Assembly (NCBI GenBank): GCA_016866215.1
Contig: VGNE01000020.1
Location: 1-59,135 of the forward strand
Direction: 5' to 3'
DNA: 59,135 nucleotides
From: Chloroflexota bacterium
GTDB lineage: Bacteria > Chloroflexota > Anaerolineae > Anaerolineales > Villigracilaceae
Shown: positions 21,228 through 31,818 of the stretch, piece after piece
Position numbering within the stretch: position 1 is the first letter of the stretch
How the letters are laid out: each line of letters starts with the position of its first letter
Notes under the pieces: generated by a model
What the model saw: the letters and a program-made list of their open reading frames with translations, nothing else
Databases searched by the model: none
What the model was told of the DNA's origin: nothing
Program-made: the position numbers and the translations under genes

Positions 21228-21887
21228 ATGATTTCCATCTCTTCTTCGACACCTGACTCCTCTGCTACAGACGCAACACGTCGCCGTTATCAACGTCTCT
21301 CTCCATTTTACGATGCAATGGAAGGATTGGCTGAGCGGCGTTATCGCCCCTGGCGCACAAAATTATGGTCACAAGTACCAGGCTTGCGTGTCCTTGAAGT
21401 CGGTATTGGAACCGGCAAGAATATGCAGTTTTACCCTCCTGGCATTTCGATTACCGGTATTGATCTTACACCCGGCATGTTGCAACGCGCAAAAAAACGA
21501 GCCGGCAATTTGCGATTAAGGTCAAGGGTCGAGCTTCATCTCGGTGATGTTCAACAATTGGATTTCCCGAATGGTAAGTTTGATTCAGCCGTTGCCACCT
21601 TTGTTTTCTGCTCAGTACCTGACCCGGTGCTTGGTTTGTGTGAACTCAAGCGCGTGGTGAAACCCGGCGGAAGAGTTCTGCTCCTCGAACACATGCGCTC
21701 TCCTCACCCCATTATGGGAGCCGTGATGGATTTTCTCAATCCGCTAATTGTGCGAATGATGGGCGCAAACATTAATCGCCAGACAGTGGAAAATGTACGC
21801 AAGGCCGGGCTGGAGATCGAGCAGGTTGAAGATTTGGGAGCGGGCGGAATCTTCAACCTGATTGCGGCCCGTGTCCCCTCAAAATAA
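21228..21887 (+). CDS. Class I SAM-dependent methyltransferase
   Basis: 219 aa. The SAM-binding motif is VLEVGIGTGKNMQFY, then GIDLTPGMLQRAKK, and a late KRVVKPGGRVLLLEHMRSP motif. It resembles phospholipid N-methyltransferases and UbiE-like enzymes; the HMRSPHP segment is common in phosphatidylethanolamine N-methyltransferase-like members. The substrate is not certain. Its 3' end overlaps the possible extended start of the next gene, so the two are closely packed. Confidence 0.86.
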   Translation: MISISSSTPDSSATDATRRRYQRLSPFYDAMEGLAERRYRPWRTKLWSQVPGLRVLEVGIGTGKNMQFYPPGISITGIDLTPGMLQRAKKRAGNLRLRSRVELHLGDVQQLDFPNGKFDSAVATFVFCSVPDPVLGLCELKRVVKPGGRVLLLEHMRSPHPIMGAVMDFLNPLIVRMMGANINRQTVENVRKAGLEIEQVEDLGAGGIFNLIAARVPSK

Positions 21888-21909
21888 ATCTGGTTTGAGC
21901 AGGCGATCT

Positions 21910-22947
21910 ATGACTCATCTCTCACGACGCGATTTTCTTAAACTGAGTGCTTCGACTTTTACAGGTCTGGCATTTTCTCCATTCCTGCCTGATCTAGGAA
22001 CTTTCGATGGTACAGAAAAGGTACGCGTGGCGACCAGTTCAGTCAGCGTCTACAGCGCTCCAAATGATCAGAGTCAGATCGTCGGACAATGGTTCAGAGA
22101 TGAGTTGGTAAACATCTATGAAGAGGTAAACTCTGGCACACCGGCTTACAATCCAATCTGGTATCGTGTCTGGGGCGGATATGTGCATCGCGGGCGCCTG
22201 CAAAAGGTCAAAGTTCTTTTCAATGAACCACTGAAATCCTTCCCCGAAGGGACGCAGCAACTGGCTGAACTGACCGTGCCTTATACTCAGGCCATGCGTT
22301 TTACAAAAACCTACGGCTGGCAGCCAAACTTGCGGCTTTACTATGGGACGGTGCATTGGATGGATGGGATTGATGAAGGTCCCGATGGTCAGCCTTGGTA
22401 CCGCATTCTCGATGAATTGGTCAAATTTCCCTATCACGTCCCGGCTAGCCACTTACGCCCGATCCCGTTCGAGGAATGGGCTGCCATTGCTCCGGATGTG
22501 CCGCTCGAAAACAAACGCATTGAAGTCAACCTAAGCACCCAGGTCTTAACCGCATACGAGTATGACAAAAACGTATTTCAAACCACCATTTCTTCCGGCA
22601 TCCCGTCTGGGCGGCCCAGCCCAAAGGAACTCTCGACCAAAACCCCTAGCGGTGAGTTTCGTATTTTATCGAAATATCCCTCCAAGCACATGGGCAATGG
22701 AAACTTGTTTGCCGGCATTGAAGATTATGAATTGCCTGGCGTCCCCTGGACGAGTTTCTTTACCGGAACGGGAGTTGCTTTTCACGGGACGTACTGGCAC
22801 GATAACTTCGGCATACCGATGAGCCGCGGCTGTGTCAACATGCGCATCGAAGAAGCAAAATGGCTGTTCCGTTGGGCGCGCCCATTTCACAAGTTTGACC
22901 GTATCTATACCACCGGTTACGGGACGCTGGTGATGATTACTCCCTAA
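21910..22947 (+). CDS. Tat-exported L,D-transpeptidase (YkuD) with SH3-like region
   Basis: 345 aa from the ATG at 21910, which directly precedes the twin-arginine signal (THLSRRDFLKLSASTFTG); an in-frame extension to 21862 would bury the signal. An SH3-like region follows, then the YkuD domain with FHGTYWHDNFG and SRGCVNMR, including the catalytic Cys. It is a paralog of the protein at 3193-4233 (same length and domain order). It cross-links or modifies peptidoglycan outside the membrane. Confidence 0.92.
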   Translation: MTHLSRRDFLKLSASTFTGLAFSPFLPDLGTFDGTEKVRVATSSVSVYSAPNDQSQIVGQWFRDELVNIYEEVNSGTPAYNPIWYRVWGGYVHRGRLQKVKVLFNEPLKSFPEGTQQLAELTVPYTQAMRFTKTYGWQPNLRLYYGTVHWMDGIDEGPDGQPWYRILDELVKFPYHVPASHLRPIPFEEWAAIAPDVPLENKRIEVNLSTQVLTAYEYDKNVFQTTISSGIPSGRPSPKELSTKTPSGEFRILSKYPSKHMGNGNLFAGIEDYELPGVPWTSFFTGTGVAFHGTYWHDNFGIPMSRGCVNMRIEEAKWLFRWARPFHKFDRIYTTGYGTLVMITP

Positions 22948-23102: not shown

Positions 23103-23158
23103 CAATCTGGTCGGCAGGAAAATTATTCTAGGCAGAGCATTGTTAATAAAGAGGTTTG

Positions 23159-23623
23159 ATGAGCAAAAAACATAAGAGACAAAAACAAAGAAAGAATTTC
23201 CCCTGGCCGCTTGTTGTATTTGGCGGAATCCTGTTAATCCTTGCCGCATTTTTCTTCACCAATCAAGGCGGCGGGGATGGCGGTGGGACTCCCTCCATCG
23301 CGGTGGATCAGCAAAAGATTGAGTATGGCGACCAAAAGTTCGGCACTAACCTGACTTTCGCCATCAAAGTCACCAACACGGGTGATGGTACGTTGCGCTT
23401 CAAAGAAGAACCGTATATCGAAGTCCTGGAGGGGTGCTGACCTCCTCAATTAACCATCGGTTCGATGGTACTCAAGCCTGGTGAAAGCACAATCGTTGAA
23501 TCTGCCGTCTTCATGATGCACGAAGGCATGGACGGTCCGCACAACTTCGGGGTTCATCTCAAAACGAACGATCCTGCAAATCCTGATCTGGTCGTGAATG
23601 TGCTGTCAAACTGGATACCTTAA
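23159..23623 (+). CDS. Candidate selenoprotein: membrane-anchored DUF1573-like protein with in-frame UGA (Sec94)
   Basis: The ATG at 23159 (AAGAGG upstream) opens 93 codons ending in EVLEGC, then TGA at 23438-23440, then 60 more codons in the same frame to TAA at 23621. The downstream part (PPQLTIGSMVLKPGEST, later MMHEGMDGPHNFGVHLKTND) is coherent protein. It completes an Ig-like DUF1573-type domain with the typical KTNDPANPD strand. A cytoplasmic basic N-terminus and one helix (about 15-35) put the domain outside. The TGA codon sits in Cys-TGA-Pro-Pro, where a redox Cys would be expected, giving a Cys-Sec pair. Support: the SECIS-like hairpin at 23453-23469 and selB at 29923-31818. A nonsense mutation is the alternative. 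Confidence 0.82.
23453..23469 (+). promoter_or_regulatory. Bacterial SECIS-like hairpin
   Basis: ACCATC (23453-23458) and GATGGT (23464-23469) pair perfectly around the loop GGTTC. The loop begins 18 nt after the in-frame TGA, close to the spacing of the E. coli fdhF element (from memory), and starts with GG as SelB-binding apical loops usually do. It is coding sequence at the same time (TIGSM). Confidence 0.65.
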
Positions 23624-23674: not shown

Positions 23675-24820
23675 CTATTTCGCAATCGGTAATGTGAAAG
23701 TGAAGGTACTCCCCTTTCCATCACCTGCCGACTCCACCCAAAGGTGCCCACCTTGCGCTTCGACAAGGGCGCGTGCAATCGTCAGGCCGATGCCGCTTCC
23801 GCCACCACTTTGACGTGAGCGCGATTTATCCACGCGGTAGAAGCGGTCGAAAATATGAGAAAGATGTTTGGGTGGAATGCCAATGCCCGAATCGCGGACA
23901 GCGATCTGAATTTCATCCCCAATTCGTTTCGCATTGATAGTAACCCGTCCGCCTTCTGGTGTATATTGCAAGGCGTTGCCTGTCAGATTCGTCAACACCT
24001 GCACGGCGCGGTCCTCATCGGCGAGGACATGCGGAAGGTCGGGAGCCAGTTCGAGGTCCAGAGCGATGCGTTTGGATTTGAAATGAGGGGCGAGTCGTTT
24101 GTTCACAGTCTGCACAAGGGTGGAAACATACAAAGATTGGATTTCCAGTTTATATGCGTGAGCCTCAACGCGGCTGAGTTCCTGCAGGTCATCCACGAGG
24201 CGATTGAGGCGATCCGCCTCGGCGTGAATTTGTTGATAGGTTTCATGGGTGGCGGGCAGAACGCCATCCATCAAGCCCTCCATCGAGCCTTTGATGGCGG
24301 TCAGCGGTGTGCGCAGTTCGTGACTGACATCGCCGATGAGACGGCGGCGCATGGATTCAATTTGATTCAGTTTTTCAGCCATTTGGTTGAAATACAATGC
24401 GAGCTGTGCGAGTTCATCTTTGCCATTCACTTGCACGCGTTCATCGTAATGTCCTTCTGAGATGCGCTGTGTAGCAAGCGACATGGCTTGTATGGGTGCA
24501 ATCACACTGCGGCTGAGAAACAGACTGAATGCGATAGCCACAATCATAGCCGCCAGTGCCGCATACGTCAGAGCCTCATTGAAGCTGGCGCGGAAATCAA
24601 CGTACAGTTGTGGCATTGAATTAGAGTTGCCAATTCCCTGGTTACCCATTCCCATGCCCATCCCACCGTCCATCATCCCCATGCCAGACATATGGCGATT
24701 GAAAGATGTCGGCAGGATGAACTGGCTGGCCATGATCAGCACTGCCACACCCACAACGATGATGGCGAGATAAGACAGTAGAAGTTTTGCGCCCAAATGA
24801 CGGCGGAAGTAGTCGGTCAT
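23675..24820 (-). CDS. Sensor histidine kinase with Met-rich extracytoplasmic loop
   Basis: 381 aa. Helix 1 (about 13-35), a short outside loop and helix 2 (about 82-107) are followed by HAMP, HisKA with the phospho-accepting His in SHELRTPLTAIKG, and HATPase with N, G1 and G2 boxes (GNALQYTPEGG, RDSGIGIP, GGGSGIGL). The loop has Met at residues 44, 47, 49, 50, 54, 56, 58 and 69 in a Gly-rich context, like soft-metal binding motifs. A Cu(I) or Ag(I) sensing role is inferred. Its regulator gene lies 15 bp upstream in the same direction. Confidence 0.93.
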   Translation of the reverse strand: MTDYFRRHLGAKLLLSYLAIIVVGVAVLIMASQFILPTSFNRHMSGMGMMDGGMGMGMGNQGIGNSNSMPQLYVDFRASFNEALTYAALAAMIVAIAFSLFLSRSVIAPIQAMSLATQRISEGHYDERVQVNGKDELAQLALYFNQMAEKLNQIESMRRRLIGDVSHELRTPLTAIKGSMEGLMDGVLPATHETYQQIHAEADRLNRLVDDLQELSRVEAHAYKLEIQSLYVSTLVQTVNKRLAPHFKSKRIALDLELAPDLPHVLADEDRAVQVLTNLTGNALQYTPEGGRVTINAKRIGDEIQIAVRDSGIGIPPKHLSHIFDRFYRVDKSRSRQSGGGSGIGLTIARALVEAQGGHLWVESAGDGKGSTFTFTLPIAK

Positions 24821-24835
24821 AATTCCTCACACTGC

Positions 24836-25519
24836 CTAAAGCGGCTCATCTTCAAAGCGGTAGCCCACGCTGCGCACGGTGGCAATCAGATCCTCGCGGC
24901 CCAATTTTTGGCGGACGTGCCCCAGGTGCACATCTACGACGCGTATTTCGCCGAAGTATTCGCCGCCCCAAACTTTTTCGAGTAATTGCTCGCGCGATAA
25001 AACGCGCCCGCGATTTTCAGCCAGCGCTTTTAATAGATCAAATTCGATGGCAGTTAACTCAATCGGATTTTCATCCACGCTGACGGTACGCGCGCCGACG
25101 TCCATTCGCAGATGACGGAAAGACAGCACGCTCATTTCGGACCCCGAGCCTGTTCCCGTTTGAATGCGCCTCAGCGCGGCTTTGACGCGCGCCGTCAACT
25201 CGCGCGGGCTGAATGGTTTCGTCACGTAATCATCCGCCCCGACAGAAAGGCCGACAATCTTATCGGTCTCTTCCGTTTTTGCTGTAAGCAGGATCACGTA
25301 CACTTCTGATTCGCGGCGCAGGCGGGAAAGCAACTCGATCCCATCCATGCCAGGGAGCATGATATCCAAAATAACGAGATCGGGCTTGAAGGCGCGCGCC
25401 GCTTTCAAGCCCGATGATCCATCCAGCGCTGTGAAAATTTCATAGCCTTCGGGCTTCAGATAAGCCGTGACAAGATTCACGATGGATGGTTCGTCATCTA
25501 CAACAAGGATTTTAGCCAT
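24836..25519 (-). CDS. OmpR-family response regulator
   Basis: 227 aa. The receiver domain has VVDDEPSIV, the phospho-acceptor Asp in DLVILDIMLPGMDG and the conserved Lys in DYVTKPFSPREL. The winged-helix output domain ends with VRSVGYRFEDE. It pairs with the Met-rich sensor kinase directly downstream. The likely targets include the Met-rich PepSY gene just upstream (25681-26451), as often seen with metal-responsive systems; this is inferred from position. Confidence 0.95.
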   Translation of the reverse strand: MAKILVVDDEPSIVNLVTAYLKPEGYEIFTALDGSSGLKAARAFKPDLVILDIMLPGMDGIELLSRLRRESEVYVILLTAKTEETDKIVGLSVGADDYVTKPFSPRELTARVKAALRRIQTGTGSGSEMSVLSFRHLRMDVGARTVSVDENPIELTAIEFDLLKALAENRGRVLSREQLLEKVWGGEYFGEIRVVDVHLGHVRQKLGREDLIATVRSVGYRFEDEPL

Positions 25520-25680: not shown

Positions 25681-26451
25681 TTACTCGGCTTCTTCGATAA
25701 ACGTGCCATGCCAGGTGTGTAGGAAGATCTGTCCGCTGTAACCATTGACGCTCAACATGCCGATGATCTGGCCGTCCTTCTCGAAGTCGAGGGTGTAGTA
25801 GCCGTAGAATTGCATGGGATCAGTTGCGGCGGTTGCGCCCGCGTAATTGCTATTGAGATACTTCTGGGCATATTCCACAGCCTGTTCAGAAGTGACGATC
25901 ATTTCAGCAGAGACCTTCGTGGATGGTGTAGTTTGATAATTCCAACCGCCCATCATGCCGTTGCCGCCCATCATTCCTCCGTGATTCAGACCGCCATACT
26001 TGAGATTCCACATCATGTTGGGGCCATATTCAGGGTATGCGATCTGCGAAACGGGGTCCACCAGCAATTCGAACGCGCCCAGGCCCGTCTCACTTTCCTT
26101 GACGATGACGTAGGCATGGTTGTCGAAGATCATGACTTCGCCCGTCTCCAGTCCTTGAATGTTAAGAGACTGAATGTATTTCTCTGCCGCGCCCTTGGCC
26201 TGGTCAACGGTCAGGGGTTTGACGTTGGAGTTGGTTCCGTTGTTCCAGCCGTATCCGCCCATCATGCCGTAACCACCGTTACGGTTCATCATGCCAGGGC
26301 CATACGCTTGGTTATTGTTCCAGCTGTTTCTAAACATCATGGAAGGGCCATACGCATTCGCACGAGCATACATGCTTCCAGCGAAAAAGACGCCGCCTGC
26401 CAGCACAAGAACTGCGATAACGATCAGGATCGTGCTTAAAGTTTTGTTCAT
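25681..26451 (-). CDS. Secreted Met/Gly-rich protein with PepSY-like repeats
   Basis: 256 aa. An N-terminal signal or anchor helix (about 5-26) is followed by a low-complexity Asn/Gly/Met segment (YGPGMMNRNGGYGMMGGYGW). Two PepSY-like units follow: VDQAKGAAEKYIQSLNI and then VTSEQAVEYAQKYLNSNY. A second Met/Gly stretch (GGMMGGNGMMGGW) lies between them. A clean AGGAGA ribosome-binding site precedes the start. The Met clusters match those of the nearby kinase loop, suggesting both contact the same soft metal. PepSY domains are otherwise linked to protease inhibition or envelope metal proteins. Confidence 0.82.
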   Translation of the reverse strand: MNKTLSTILIVIAVLVLAGGVFFAGSMYARANAYGPSMMFRNSWNNNQAYGPGMMNRNGGYGMMGGYGWNNGTNSNVKPLTVDQAKGAAEKYIQSLNIQGLETGEVMIFDNHAYVIVKESETGLGAFELLVDPVSQIAYPEYGPNMMWNLKYGGLNHGGMMGGNGMMGGWNYQTTPSTKVSAEMIVTSEQAVEYAQKYLNSNYAGATAATDPMQFYGYYTLDFEKDGQIIGMLSVNGYSGQIFLHTWHGTFIEEAE

Positions 26452-29922: not shown

Positions 29923-31818
29923 TTAATTTTTTAACTTCCTTGCATCGCCGTCGCGCATGGTTATGCCGATGGCATCCATATGTTCCAGTAAAGCTTGTAT
30001 GTATTTCCTGGTCGTATCGAGCATATCGCGCACTTCGGCAAGCGTGATCCGCCCTTTTTGTTGAATTGCTGTTCTGATCCTTTCAACCATTTCTTCATAA
30101 TCTTTTTTGCGAAAGATGACGTCCTGCGAGACAGGGATCAGCTCGCCCATTTCGATCAAAGCATTGATGACCTCCTCGCCGGCCTGCGCCTGACATTCCC
30201 TGACGCTGGGCGTGGCGTACGGAGTCTTCTCGAACCTTCGCATCAATTCCTCGACCTGGACCTGCTGGCTGGCCTCGAACTTGATCTCATGCCCTGTGAG
30301 GGATACCGCTGCCCTCGTGTCCGTCAATACATTCGATTCCGCGAGCTTCTTTATGGCTGTATTGAAAATACGCGCAGTGAGTTTGAGCCTGCTTTTCATT
30401 TCCTCGCGCGGAATGCCGCGCCTTAATGGAAATTGTTTGTGAAAGGTGTTGAGAATATTTTCAACGCGTCCGCGCAGTTCGTTCCAGTCAGGGAGCGCAA
30501 TCGCAAGCGAATCACTTTGTATGCCAGGGTCGCCAGCCTCCAAATGGACAAGTTGGCCGGTTTTGGTTAATTCTTTCACAGCCGCATCAGCAGTGGCCGC
30601 ATCCAATCGGGATTTGGCGACGATCTCTTTCAACGACGCAGCATGAAGGGACAAAGCCGCCTCCAACAGCACTTCGGCAGGGGAGCCTTGAGCAAGAGAT
30701 TCTAAAGATTTCAGCACACTCTTATCAAAGCGCTTGTGCCTGCCTTTGGGTTGATGATCAATCACCGCACCGCCGCCAAGGGTTTCACCGGGGGACGGAC
30801 GGCGCAGGATGTAACGATCTCCGCGCACAGTGACGAGAGGCTCACGCAGTTCAAGTTGGATCCAGCCTTCTTCGCCTGCGATGAGTTCCTCCGTGCCGAG
30901 CAGGCGTACTATTGCGATGGTCTCACTCGCGCCCGCAAAGAATTTCACCTCATCGCCATGTTTGATGGACGTGGAGGCGTCCTTGAGCAGACGAAAGCGC
31001 GCGTCAATTCTGCGTGTGGTTTGATATTGATTTGGATATGTCACCACCTTCCCGCGGCGGATCGAGCCCATATCCACCCCTGAAATATTCACTGCTGTCC
31101 GCGAACCCGGCAGGGCTTTTTCTTCTTTCTTCTTATGCGTTTGAAGCCCTCGAATTCTTCCCTTTGATCCTCCTGGCAAAATTTCCACTTCATCGCCGAT
31201 GGAAAGATGACCATCGCTGAGGGTGCCTGTTACGACGGTGCCGAATCCGCTCATGCTGAAGACGCGGTCAATTGGCAGGCGCGGACGGCCGATATCCAGA
31301 CGGGTGGGTTTTTGTTGAAGAAGAACTTGGAGACTGGAGATAAGTTTCTCGAGTCCTGTTTTATTTTTTGCAGAGACTCTGACAATTTGGGCGTCTTCGA
31401 GGACGGTGTTTCTCACGGCGGAGCGAATGTCTGTTTCCAGCAGATCAAGCCACCCTGGGTCTGAAGCGAGGTCTGTTTTTGTCAGGACGATCAATCCGGC
31501 GGGGATCTGTAATAGATCCAGAATCGCCAAATGTTCTTTTGTCTGCGGCATGACACCTTCATTAGCGGCAACGACGAGCAGCGCGGCGTCAATTCCGCTG
31601 ATGCCTGAAAGCATGTTCTCAATGAAATCGCGGTGACCGGGCACATCCACAATGCCGACTTCCTCACCGCTGGGGAGGGTGAGCCAGCCGAAACCGAGTT
31701 CGATGGTCATTTCGCGGGCTTGTTCTTCTTTGAGACGGTCGGGATGTATGCCCGTGAGCGCTTCAATTAATGTGGATTTGCCATGATCTACGTGGCCTGC
31801 AGTACCGATAACTCTCAT
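29923..31818 (-). CDS. selB: Selenocysteine-specific elongation factor SelB
   Basis: 631 aa. The GTPase domain has GHVDHGKST, a switch II DVPGHRDF and TKTD. Two beta-barrel domains follow (FSMSGFGTVVTGTLSDG region), then the C-terminal winged-helix repeats that distinguish SelB from EF-Tu (for example PLRRGIPREEMKSRL and the final KGRITLAEVRDMLDTTRKY). SelB carries Sec-tRNA to UGA codons marked by a SECIS hairpin. Its presence means the genome decodes UGA as Sec, supporting the selenoprotein candidate at 23159. selA, selD and selC are not in the window. Confidence 0.95.
   Translation of the reverse strand: MRVIGTAGHVDHGKSTLIEALTGIHPDRLKEEQAREMTIELGFGWLTLPSGEEVGIVDVPGHRDFIENMLSGISGIDAALLVVAANEGVMPQTKEHLAILDLLQIPAGLIVLTKTDLASDPGWLDLLETDIRSAVRNTVLEDAQIVRVSAKNKTGLEKLISSLQVLLQQKPTRLDIGRPRLPIDRVFSMSGFGTVVTGTLSDGHLSIGDEVEILPGGSKGRIRGLQTHKKKEEKALPGSRTAVNISGVDMGSIRRGKVVTYPNQYQTTRRIDARFRLLKDASTSIKHGDEVKFFAGASETIAIVRLLGTEELIAGEEGWIQLELREPLVTVRGDRYILRRPSPGETLGGGAVIDHQPKGRHKRFDKSVLKSLESLAQGSPAEVLLEAALSLHAASLKEIVAKSRLDAATADAAVKELTKTGQLVHLEAGDPGIQSDSLAIALPDWNELRGRVENILNTFHKQFPLRRGIPREEMKSRLKLTARIFNTAIKKLAESNVLTDTRAAVSLTGHEIKFEASQQVQVEELMRRFEKTPYATPSVRECQAQAGEEVINALIEMGELIPVSQDVIFRKKDYEEMVERIRTAIQQKGRITLAEVRDMLDTTRKYIQALLEHMDAIGITMRDGDARKLKN

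Follow-up and report, generated by a model that had tools for sequence, protein, structure and literature searches.

Selenoproteins with a DUF1573 domain are already known. One with a UGC motif, in which U is selenocysteine (Sec), is included in published review tables (PMC9312934, PMC13188914), and in the available parts of these tables the entries with a CU motif are other proteins. Like the family analyzed here, referred to as the CU family, the DUF1573 selenoprotein of an Olavius symbiont (PF07610) has an Ig-like domain of the DUF1573 type. The two differ in the position of Sec, which belongs to a UGC motif in the published Olavius-type protein, as far as the accessible source text goes, and is the residue after Cys in the GCU motif of the CU family. 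The Olavius UGC selenoprotein and NF041425 (OS_HP2) presumably represent the same family; the NF041425 cut-off of 100 bits was exceeded in 0 of 61 genomes, and the best CU family member scanned reached 46.8 bits. None of the NCBIfam models scanned accepted the CU family, with the window protein scoring 22 bits to choice-of-anchor D. The family is absent by name from the nine new families in the available part of the deep-Sep paper (PMC12013277), and no description of it was found in the open-licence literature among the matches listed, within the text accessible for them. The first-pass annotation had called the protein a likely undescribed selenoprotein, a term that needs care because of the UGC entry in the accessible review tables: any novelty would lie in the CU position and in the family, a DUF1573 selenoprotein as such being already known.

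The relation to DUF1573 was also examined at the profile level. The window protein scored 15.1 bits to PF07610 (DUF1573), below the gathering cut-off of 26.1 bits, while two of the three Cys-containing relatives scanned passed it (L120 with 35.2 and L121 with 28.8 bits, in contrast to L125 with 19.6). In this respect the earlier label of DUF1573-like needs qualification, the Pfam cut-off being reached by these relatives and not by the window protein itself. A profile alignment to two classical DUF1573 members had a probability of 98% and placed C93 on the second Cys of their CGC motif and Sec on the following Thr, where the exact register of C93/Sec is uncertain because of a gap nearby.

Comparison can further be made with extracytoplasmic proteins that serve copper sites. 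CtaK/YtkA of Bacillus is small, membrane-tethered, and extracytoplasmic, carries conserved His and Met residues, and has been implicated in CuA assembly according to the available text of its sources, which, unlike what is found in the CU family, describes no Cys-Sec pair (PMC13344008, PMC9145763). No YtkA match to the window protein was found in a Pfam scan up to E = 1. Both PCuAC, with His and Met ligands, and Sco, with two Cys and a His, act on CuA, and the accessible part of the source gives their motifs as H(M)X10MX21HXM and CXXXCXnH, respectively (PMC9145763). The alignments of the CU family instead contain M-x3-M-x-G-x-H and an adjacent C-U pair, with no CXXXC. In addition, Sco has a thioredoxin fold, whereas the CU family is modeled as an all-beta, Ig-like domain of the ASH type.

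The window analyzed in this study is a stretch of 59,135 nucleotides from a Chloroflexota genome, and its relevant features are collected in Table 1. The gene of interest forms one frame from its ATG to a TAA at 23621-23623, with a lone in-frame TGA (codon 94) followed by 60 sense codons, as the first-pass annotation had read it. Under the standard code, an ORF of 94 aa ends at this TGA. The N-terminus is rich in Lys and Arg ahead of a predicted helix and is followed by a domain that extends across the TGA and measures about 110 residues; judging from the model, the helix would insert in the membrane and leave the domain outside. No promoter was found by a consensus scan, and the single terminator-like site found was at chance level.

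Table 1. Features of the window at and around the CU gene; named loci are the 45 CU loci found in named genome records.
Feature	Coordinates	Strand	Remarks
CU selenoprotein gene	23159..23623	+	154 residues and TAA; Sec predicted at codon 94
GAGG as putative ribosome binding site, 4 nt upstream of ATG	23151..23154	+	read from sequence
Predicted helix, residues 16-36, read as membrane anchor	23204..23266	+	secondary structure of model
G-C-U-P-P motif, TGA at 23438-23440	23432..23446	+	73 distinct windows at the site: 66 TGA, 7 Cys
SECIS-type hairpin, 7 bp stem, loop GTT	23453..23469	+	conservation, covariation
FMMHEGMDGPHNFGVH segment with M120, H121, M124, G126, H128, H133	23510..23557	+	family alignments
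selB, Sec-specific elongation factor	29923..31818	-	354 bits against cut-off of 242
Histidine kinase, Met/Gly-rich stretch in N-terminal part	23675..24820	-	homologs in fetched flank of 16/45 named loci
Response regulator, Trans_reg_C domain	24836..25519	-	16/45 named loci
Met-rich protein, N-terminal hydrophobic stretch, no Pfam match	25681..26451	-	9/45 named loci
L,D-transpeptidase (YkuD), local neighbor	21862..22947	+	3/45 named loci

The genes for the kinase, the response regulator, and the Met-rich protein all lie downstream of the window copy on the opposite strand, and the Met-rich protein together with the Met/Gly-rich kinase is possibly a copper or silver sensing set. A second copy of the selenoprotein gene in the same genome (C67:4876-5328; locus L058, C67:1-12000) is 87% identical and also contains the TGA. 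It is located downstream of genes for PCYCGC, CuA, and CuA-cytochrome c proteins, which do not accompany the window copy. The wall enzymes beside the window copy, pointed out in the first-pass annotation, proved to be a local setting and not the informative link: most named relatives and the second copy occur among copper genes, and a wall-enzyme link as the function was rejected on the rarity of the YkuD neighbor (Table 1).

The CU family is spread over Chloroflexota and Actinomycetota. Among 101 genomes, consisting of the window's own and 100 relatives, a CU match was found in 34, and 43 of the 45 matches contained exactly one TGA, the other two being fragments. In a phylum-wide sample of 400 genomes, 22 had a match; one TGA was present in 28 of 31 matches, and the remaining three were fragments. 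Scanning the named genome records of bacteria and archaea identified 45 CU loci, several of them from one genome. No internal stop other than TGA was listed by whole-genome searches that read through every stop.

Relatives with Cys exactly at the TGA position had been set beforehand as a check, and seven were found in the named records, six in Chloroflexota and one in Acidimicrobiia. The counts at the site (Table 1) refer to U or C rows only, taken from a family-profile reading of the fetched loci after identical windows were removed. Before this reduction there were 122 redundant rows, comprising 109 U, 7 C, 4 gaps, 1 I, and 1 T, where the gaps were fragments (L045, L077, L081, and L075), the I was the fragment L051, and the T was a DUF1573 paralog in L121. 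The outcomes named beforehand as refuting, with homologs all ending ahead of the site or relatives with unrelated residues or other stops there in genomes lacking sel genes, did not appear. The copy represented by L045, L077, and L081 (G020:C1:4125077-4125534) has a frame broken after about residue 110 and lies near the end of a single-contig genome with an intact copy near its start, which may reflect decay or an assembly overlap. The fragment L051 (G025:C1:3108774-3108944) covers residues 94-150 only, with an unrelated residue at the site, and is remnant-like.

A search of 246 genomes from the phylum of the Acidimicrobiia form matched 10 genomes, of which five were counted as family: the TGA forms G733 and G523 (motif GCUDA) and the Cys forms G567 and G545 were added to the Cys form G489. 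Both Actinomycetota TGA forms, which are not part of the family alignments, have Asp in place of P95. Four of the other matches were weak, and the match in G706 was a different DUF1573 protein. This protein (L132, G706:C210:2428-2730) is DUF1573-like with CGC and a TGA elsewhere in its frame, and its genome of 1.3 Mb has no SelA or SelD match; a different genetic code is possible there.

Downstream of the TGA, the hairpin ACCATCG-GTT-CGATGGT has its apical loop 19 nt from the TGA, and the loop starts with G. Bacterial SECIS elements are expected to have an apical loop 16-37 nt from the UGA and a G at loop position one or two, according to the available text of the source (PMC13188914), and the window hairpin agrees with this definition, as the first-pass annotation had proposed. 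Folded alone, the hairpin had a z of -1.02, and 33 of 200 shuffles folded as well; its weight therefore comes from conservation and covariation rather than from single-sequence folding. Across 24 diverse sequences, hand-picked for diversity from 68 TGA sequences, 96.4% of the stem's cells were paired, with double changes in 5 of 7 pairs. By paired percentage, covariation score, and count of doubly changed cells, the stem surpassed all 500 shuffles, while two other measures were unexceptional (pairs with double changes, reached by 17 of 500 shuffles, and further pair types, reached by 469). Pairing in slid controls did not exceed 66%, and RNAalifold recovered 6 of the 7 stem pairs unaided. In the 52 close relatives, defined as the sequences containing IGSM, the codons ATC, GGT, and TCG were unchanged in all 52 with varying codons on either side, and ACC was fixed in all 47 that code Thr. 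Among the seven Cys forms the hairpin was degraded, with each of eight pairs examined surviving in only two to five of them.

The protein sequence behind the TGA appeared coherent, as had been claimed. The dN/dS ratio downstream of the TGA was 0.04-0.28 in the six of 12 pairs that gave a value, and synonymous change was saturated in the other six; judged by these ratios, purifying selection acts on this part, and much of the strongest conservation falls at and beyond the site. An AlphaFold2 model from 25 family sequences had a mean pLDDT of 86 and block means of 90-98 across the domain, and in this model the sequence after the TGA confidently completes an Ig-like (ASH/DUF1573) domain. The top structural match by Z was PDB 2qsv (Z 13.1, rmsd 2.0 over 104 residues, 22% identity), a Porphyromonas gingivalis protein of unknown function that is hence no guide to the function of the CU family. 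The best matches were of the ASH/PapD-like type, including HYDIN, OCRL, CEP192, and VesB/VesC. Cupredoxin, PCuAC, and thioredoxin entries were absent among the fold-comparison matches listed, and a relation to them may nevertheless exist.

In the model, the loop joining strands 86-91 and 98-100 holds Cys93-Sec94, and the one joining strands 110-115 and 126-136 holds the MMH..M segment; from the Ig topology, both loops would lie at the same end of the domain. The invariant positions of a 25-sequence alignment included E91, G92, C93, C/U94, P95, P107, G108, M120, H121, M124, G126, and H128. In a more diverse alignment of 19 sequences, C93, C/U94, P95, M120, M124, G126, and H128 remained invariant, E91 and H121 no longer did, and H133 was near-invariant in the closer alignment only. 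The common motif of the family is GC[U/C]...M-x3-M-x-G-x-H. The Met and His residues of the FMMHEGMDGPHNFGVH segment, together with C93 and U94, are proposed as metal ligands on the basis of these alignments.

The machinery for Sec was found in the window's genome, with SelA on C30, SelB in the window itself as previously noted (Table 1), SelD on C3, and tRNA-Sec on C44. The SelD gene (G000:C3:81496-82428) has an in-frame TGA of its own. It had been predicted that TGA forms would occur only in genomes carrying the sel genes, and each of the 53 TGA-form genomes tested held at least one of SelB, SelA, SelD, and tRNA-Sec, but not all four components were found everywhere. SelB was over the cut-off in 45 of the 53 (31 of 34 in the relatives set and 14 of 19 others), and the remaining eight (G016, G062, G100, G126, G221, G348, G491, and G493) each had SelA or SelD over the cut-off, several of them with a tRNA-Sec of at least 68 bits. 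For example, the SelB match of G016 (G016:C2:1971690-1973574) is in two adjacent pieces, both below the cut-off, with SelA and SelD over it. The fragmented, incomplete genomes G062 and G348 had no SelB over the cut-off, while SelD was present in both and SelA in G348; their best tRNA-Sec matches scored 48.8 and 44.3 bits (cut-off, 47), a range in which ordinary tRNAs score likewise. Among the 101 genomes, SelB was over the cut-off in 31 of 34 with a CU gene and in 49 of 67 without (p = 0.04), an association that is weak because most relatives have SelB anyway.

A neat split in which Cys occurs only without the sel genes was not observed, since most genomes with Cys forms also have Sec genes: SelB was over the cut-off in six of the seven from the named records. 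The sole clear case of Cys without sel is the seventh, G484, in which neither a SelA match nor SelB, SelD, or tRNA-Sec hits above threshold were found. Its Cys form, L121, branched among Sec forms with a support of 93/87, as expected if Cys replaced Sec upon loss of the machinery. The tree, in which 42 of 78 rows were kept after removal of near-copies and short rows and whose bootstrap had not settled, needs five Sec/Cys changes in all, and its well-supported branches alone force one. Taken together, the comparative evidence strongly supports the reading of the window gene as a selenoprotein, in which Sec is almost certainly inserted at UGA codon 94.

The neighborhoods of the 45 named loci were grouped into loose single-linkage clusters, of which representatives alone were scanned, and included the CuA cluster at 40 loci, PCYCGC at 30, a NapH-like protein (an NCBIfam match under the cut-off) at 30, and histidine kinases, response regulators, and P-type ATPases at 16 each. 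Rarer neighbors were HMA (13), FTR1 (11) and ArsR-like (10) proteins, both read from sequence, and multicopper oxidases (8). At least one of the CuA cluster, PCYCGC, and NapH-like neighbors was present at 42 of 45 loci, and the other three loci start within 260 bases of the gene. Pfam domains over the cut-off in the representatives comprised a COX2-like cupredoxin, COX2 fused to cytochrome c, a 4Fe-4S membrane protein, PCYCGC (PF13798), HMA, a heavy-metal P-type ATPase, and a multicopper oxidase. The pattern C-x3-C-x3-H-x2-M, which we take to be the CuA ligand motif, was found in 73 of the 81 proteins of the CuA cluster. Genes of the Cys forms were similarly arranged in L120, L124, and L125, and in part in L121 to L123. 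The HMA, P-type ATPase, ArsR, and FTR1 neighbors are compatible with other metals too, and the window copy itself is outside a CuA operon; overall, the CU gene is very probably part of a copper/CuA module.

PCYCGC was present in 31 of the 34 genomes that have a CU gene and in 5 of the 67 others (Fisher p = 2e-17, uncorrected for kinship). In one of these five, G065, classical DUF1573 proteins with CGCT are encoded directly beside PCYCGC (L151 and L138, on C251 and C233), which suggests a wider DUF1573-PCYCGC module, perhaps one in which PCYCGC can pair with either a CU/CC or a CGCT protein. The fetched stretches of the remaining four (G050, G079, G090, and G098) revealed neither a DUF1573-type nor a CU gene. 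In G090, a genome of the same order, the PCYCGC genes L146 (2790-4277) and L147 contain an in-frame TGA, with HGFGUGIC in L146 where relatives have HALGCSIC; they probably represent Sec versions of the known OS_HP4/CYCXC family.

These observations can be combined in a proposed mechanism. UGA codon 94 would be read as Sec through the SECIS just downstream, using the SelA, SelB, SelD, and tRNA-Sec of the genome. A single N-terminal helix is predicted to anchor the protein, with one Ig-like domain of the ASH/DUF1573 type outside the membrane. The vicinal Cys93-Sec94 pair and the M-x3-M-x-G-x-H cluster would together make up a single redox-active site for soft metals, located at one domain end and able to hold and hand over Cu(I) or to keep the cysteines of CuA reduced. 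The recipients would be the CuA cupredoxins and CuA-cytochrome c proteins encoded beside most relatives, and the protein may act together with PCYCGC. Soft ligands (Cys, Sec, two Met, and His) beside CuA genes point to Cu(I) handling, although both copper as the metal and its binding by Sec are conjectural. The chain as a whole, from Sec through a membrane-anchored Ig-like domain to a soft-metal redox site serving CuA proteins, is on balance favored, and it is about as likely as not that the actual job is one of copper delivery or redox maintenance of the CuA site.

Other roles were considered for the same selenoprotein. It could be a thiol/selenol-disulfide oxidoreductase or a peroxide-handling protein that binds no metal and whose clients are the Cys-rich PCYCGC protein or further exported proteins. 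Vicinal Cys-Sec pairs are classic redox chemistry, and the co-occurrence of PCYCGC described above fits such a client, but the invariant M120, M124, and H128 would be unusual for a pure disulfide enzyme, metal proteins are among the neighbors, and no thioredoxin-like entry was among the structural matches listed; this role appears rather unlikely. General resistance to copper or another heavy metal, in which an exported protein sequesters the metal under control of the adjacent two-component system, could draw on the kinase, response regulator, P-type ATPase, HMA, ArsR-like, and multicopper oxidase counts given above, as well as on the two Met-rich features next to the window copy, the stretch in the kinase and the separate protein. 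The commonest partners are, however, CuA electron carriers and not efflux genes, and resistance is considered unlikely.

A part in ferrous-iron uptake or oxidation that protects or loads a copper oxidase, like FtrABCD with its FTR1 permease, cupredoxin, and the polyferredoxin FtrD, is distinctly improbable: FTR1-like and NapH-like Fe-S proteins do occur among the named loci, but FTR1 in a minority, and it is CuA proteins and PCYCGC that recur most constantly. In the available text of its source, FtrABCD is an Fe2+ transporter whose FtrB is related to copper oxidases (PMC11966278). Finally, that the TGA is an ordinary stop with a decayed or separate frame behind it, or a Trp codon, is scarcely credible despite the standard-code ORF ending there, as a stop or pseudogene is opposed by purifying selection and by Cys forms that run through the site, with the SECIS covariation also against it, a separate downstream gene is contradicted by the continuous Cys forms and a modeled domain spanning the site, and Trp is disfavored because the alternative residue is Cys and never Trp, with SelB matches over the cut-off in these genomes free of internal TGA.

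The preferred reading is of a probably undescribed selenium protein that probably helps build or protect extracellular copper sites, a role made probable by the usual placement of CU relatives among copper genes. More tentatively, Sec itself might be a copper ligand, in a membrane-tethered Cu(I) chaperone that uses the Cys-Sec pair and the Met/His residues to load or repair CuA centers; within the family, Sec and Cys appear to have replaced each other on more than one occasion.

The analysis contributes a family of selenoproteins that would be truncated at 94 residues by gene calling with the standard code, and for which the comparative evidence for Sec is unusually clean. Since Sec is predicted here within an Ig-like domain that is tethered to the membrane and associated with CuA carriers, its direct use in copper handling becomes testable. 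The exchange of Sec and Cys within the family, including L121 in G484, provides a natural experiment on why Sec is kept.
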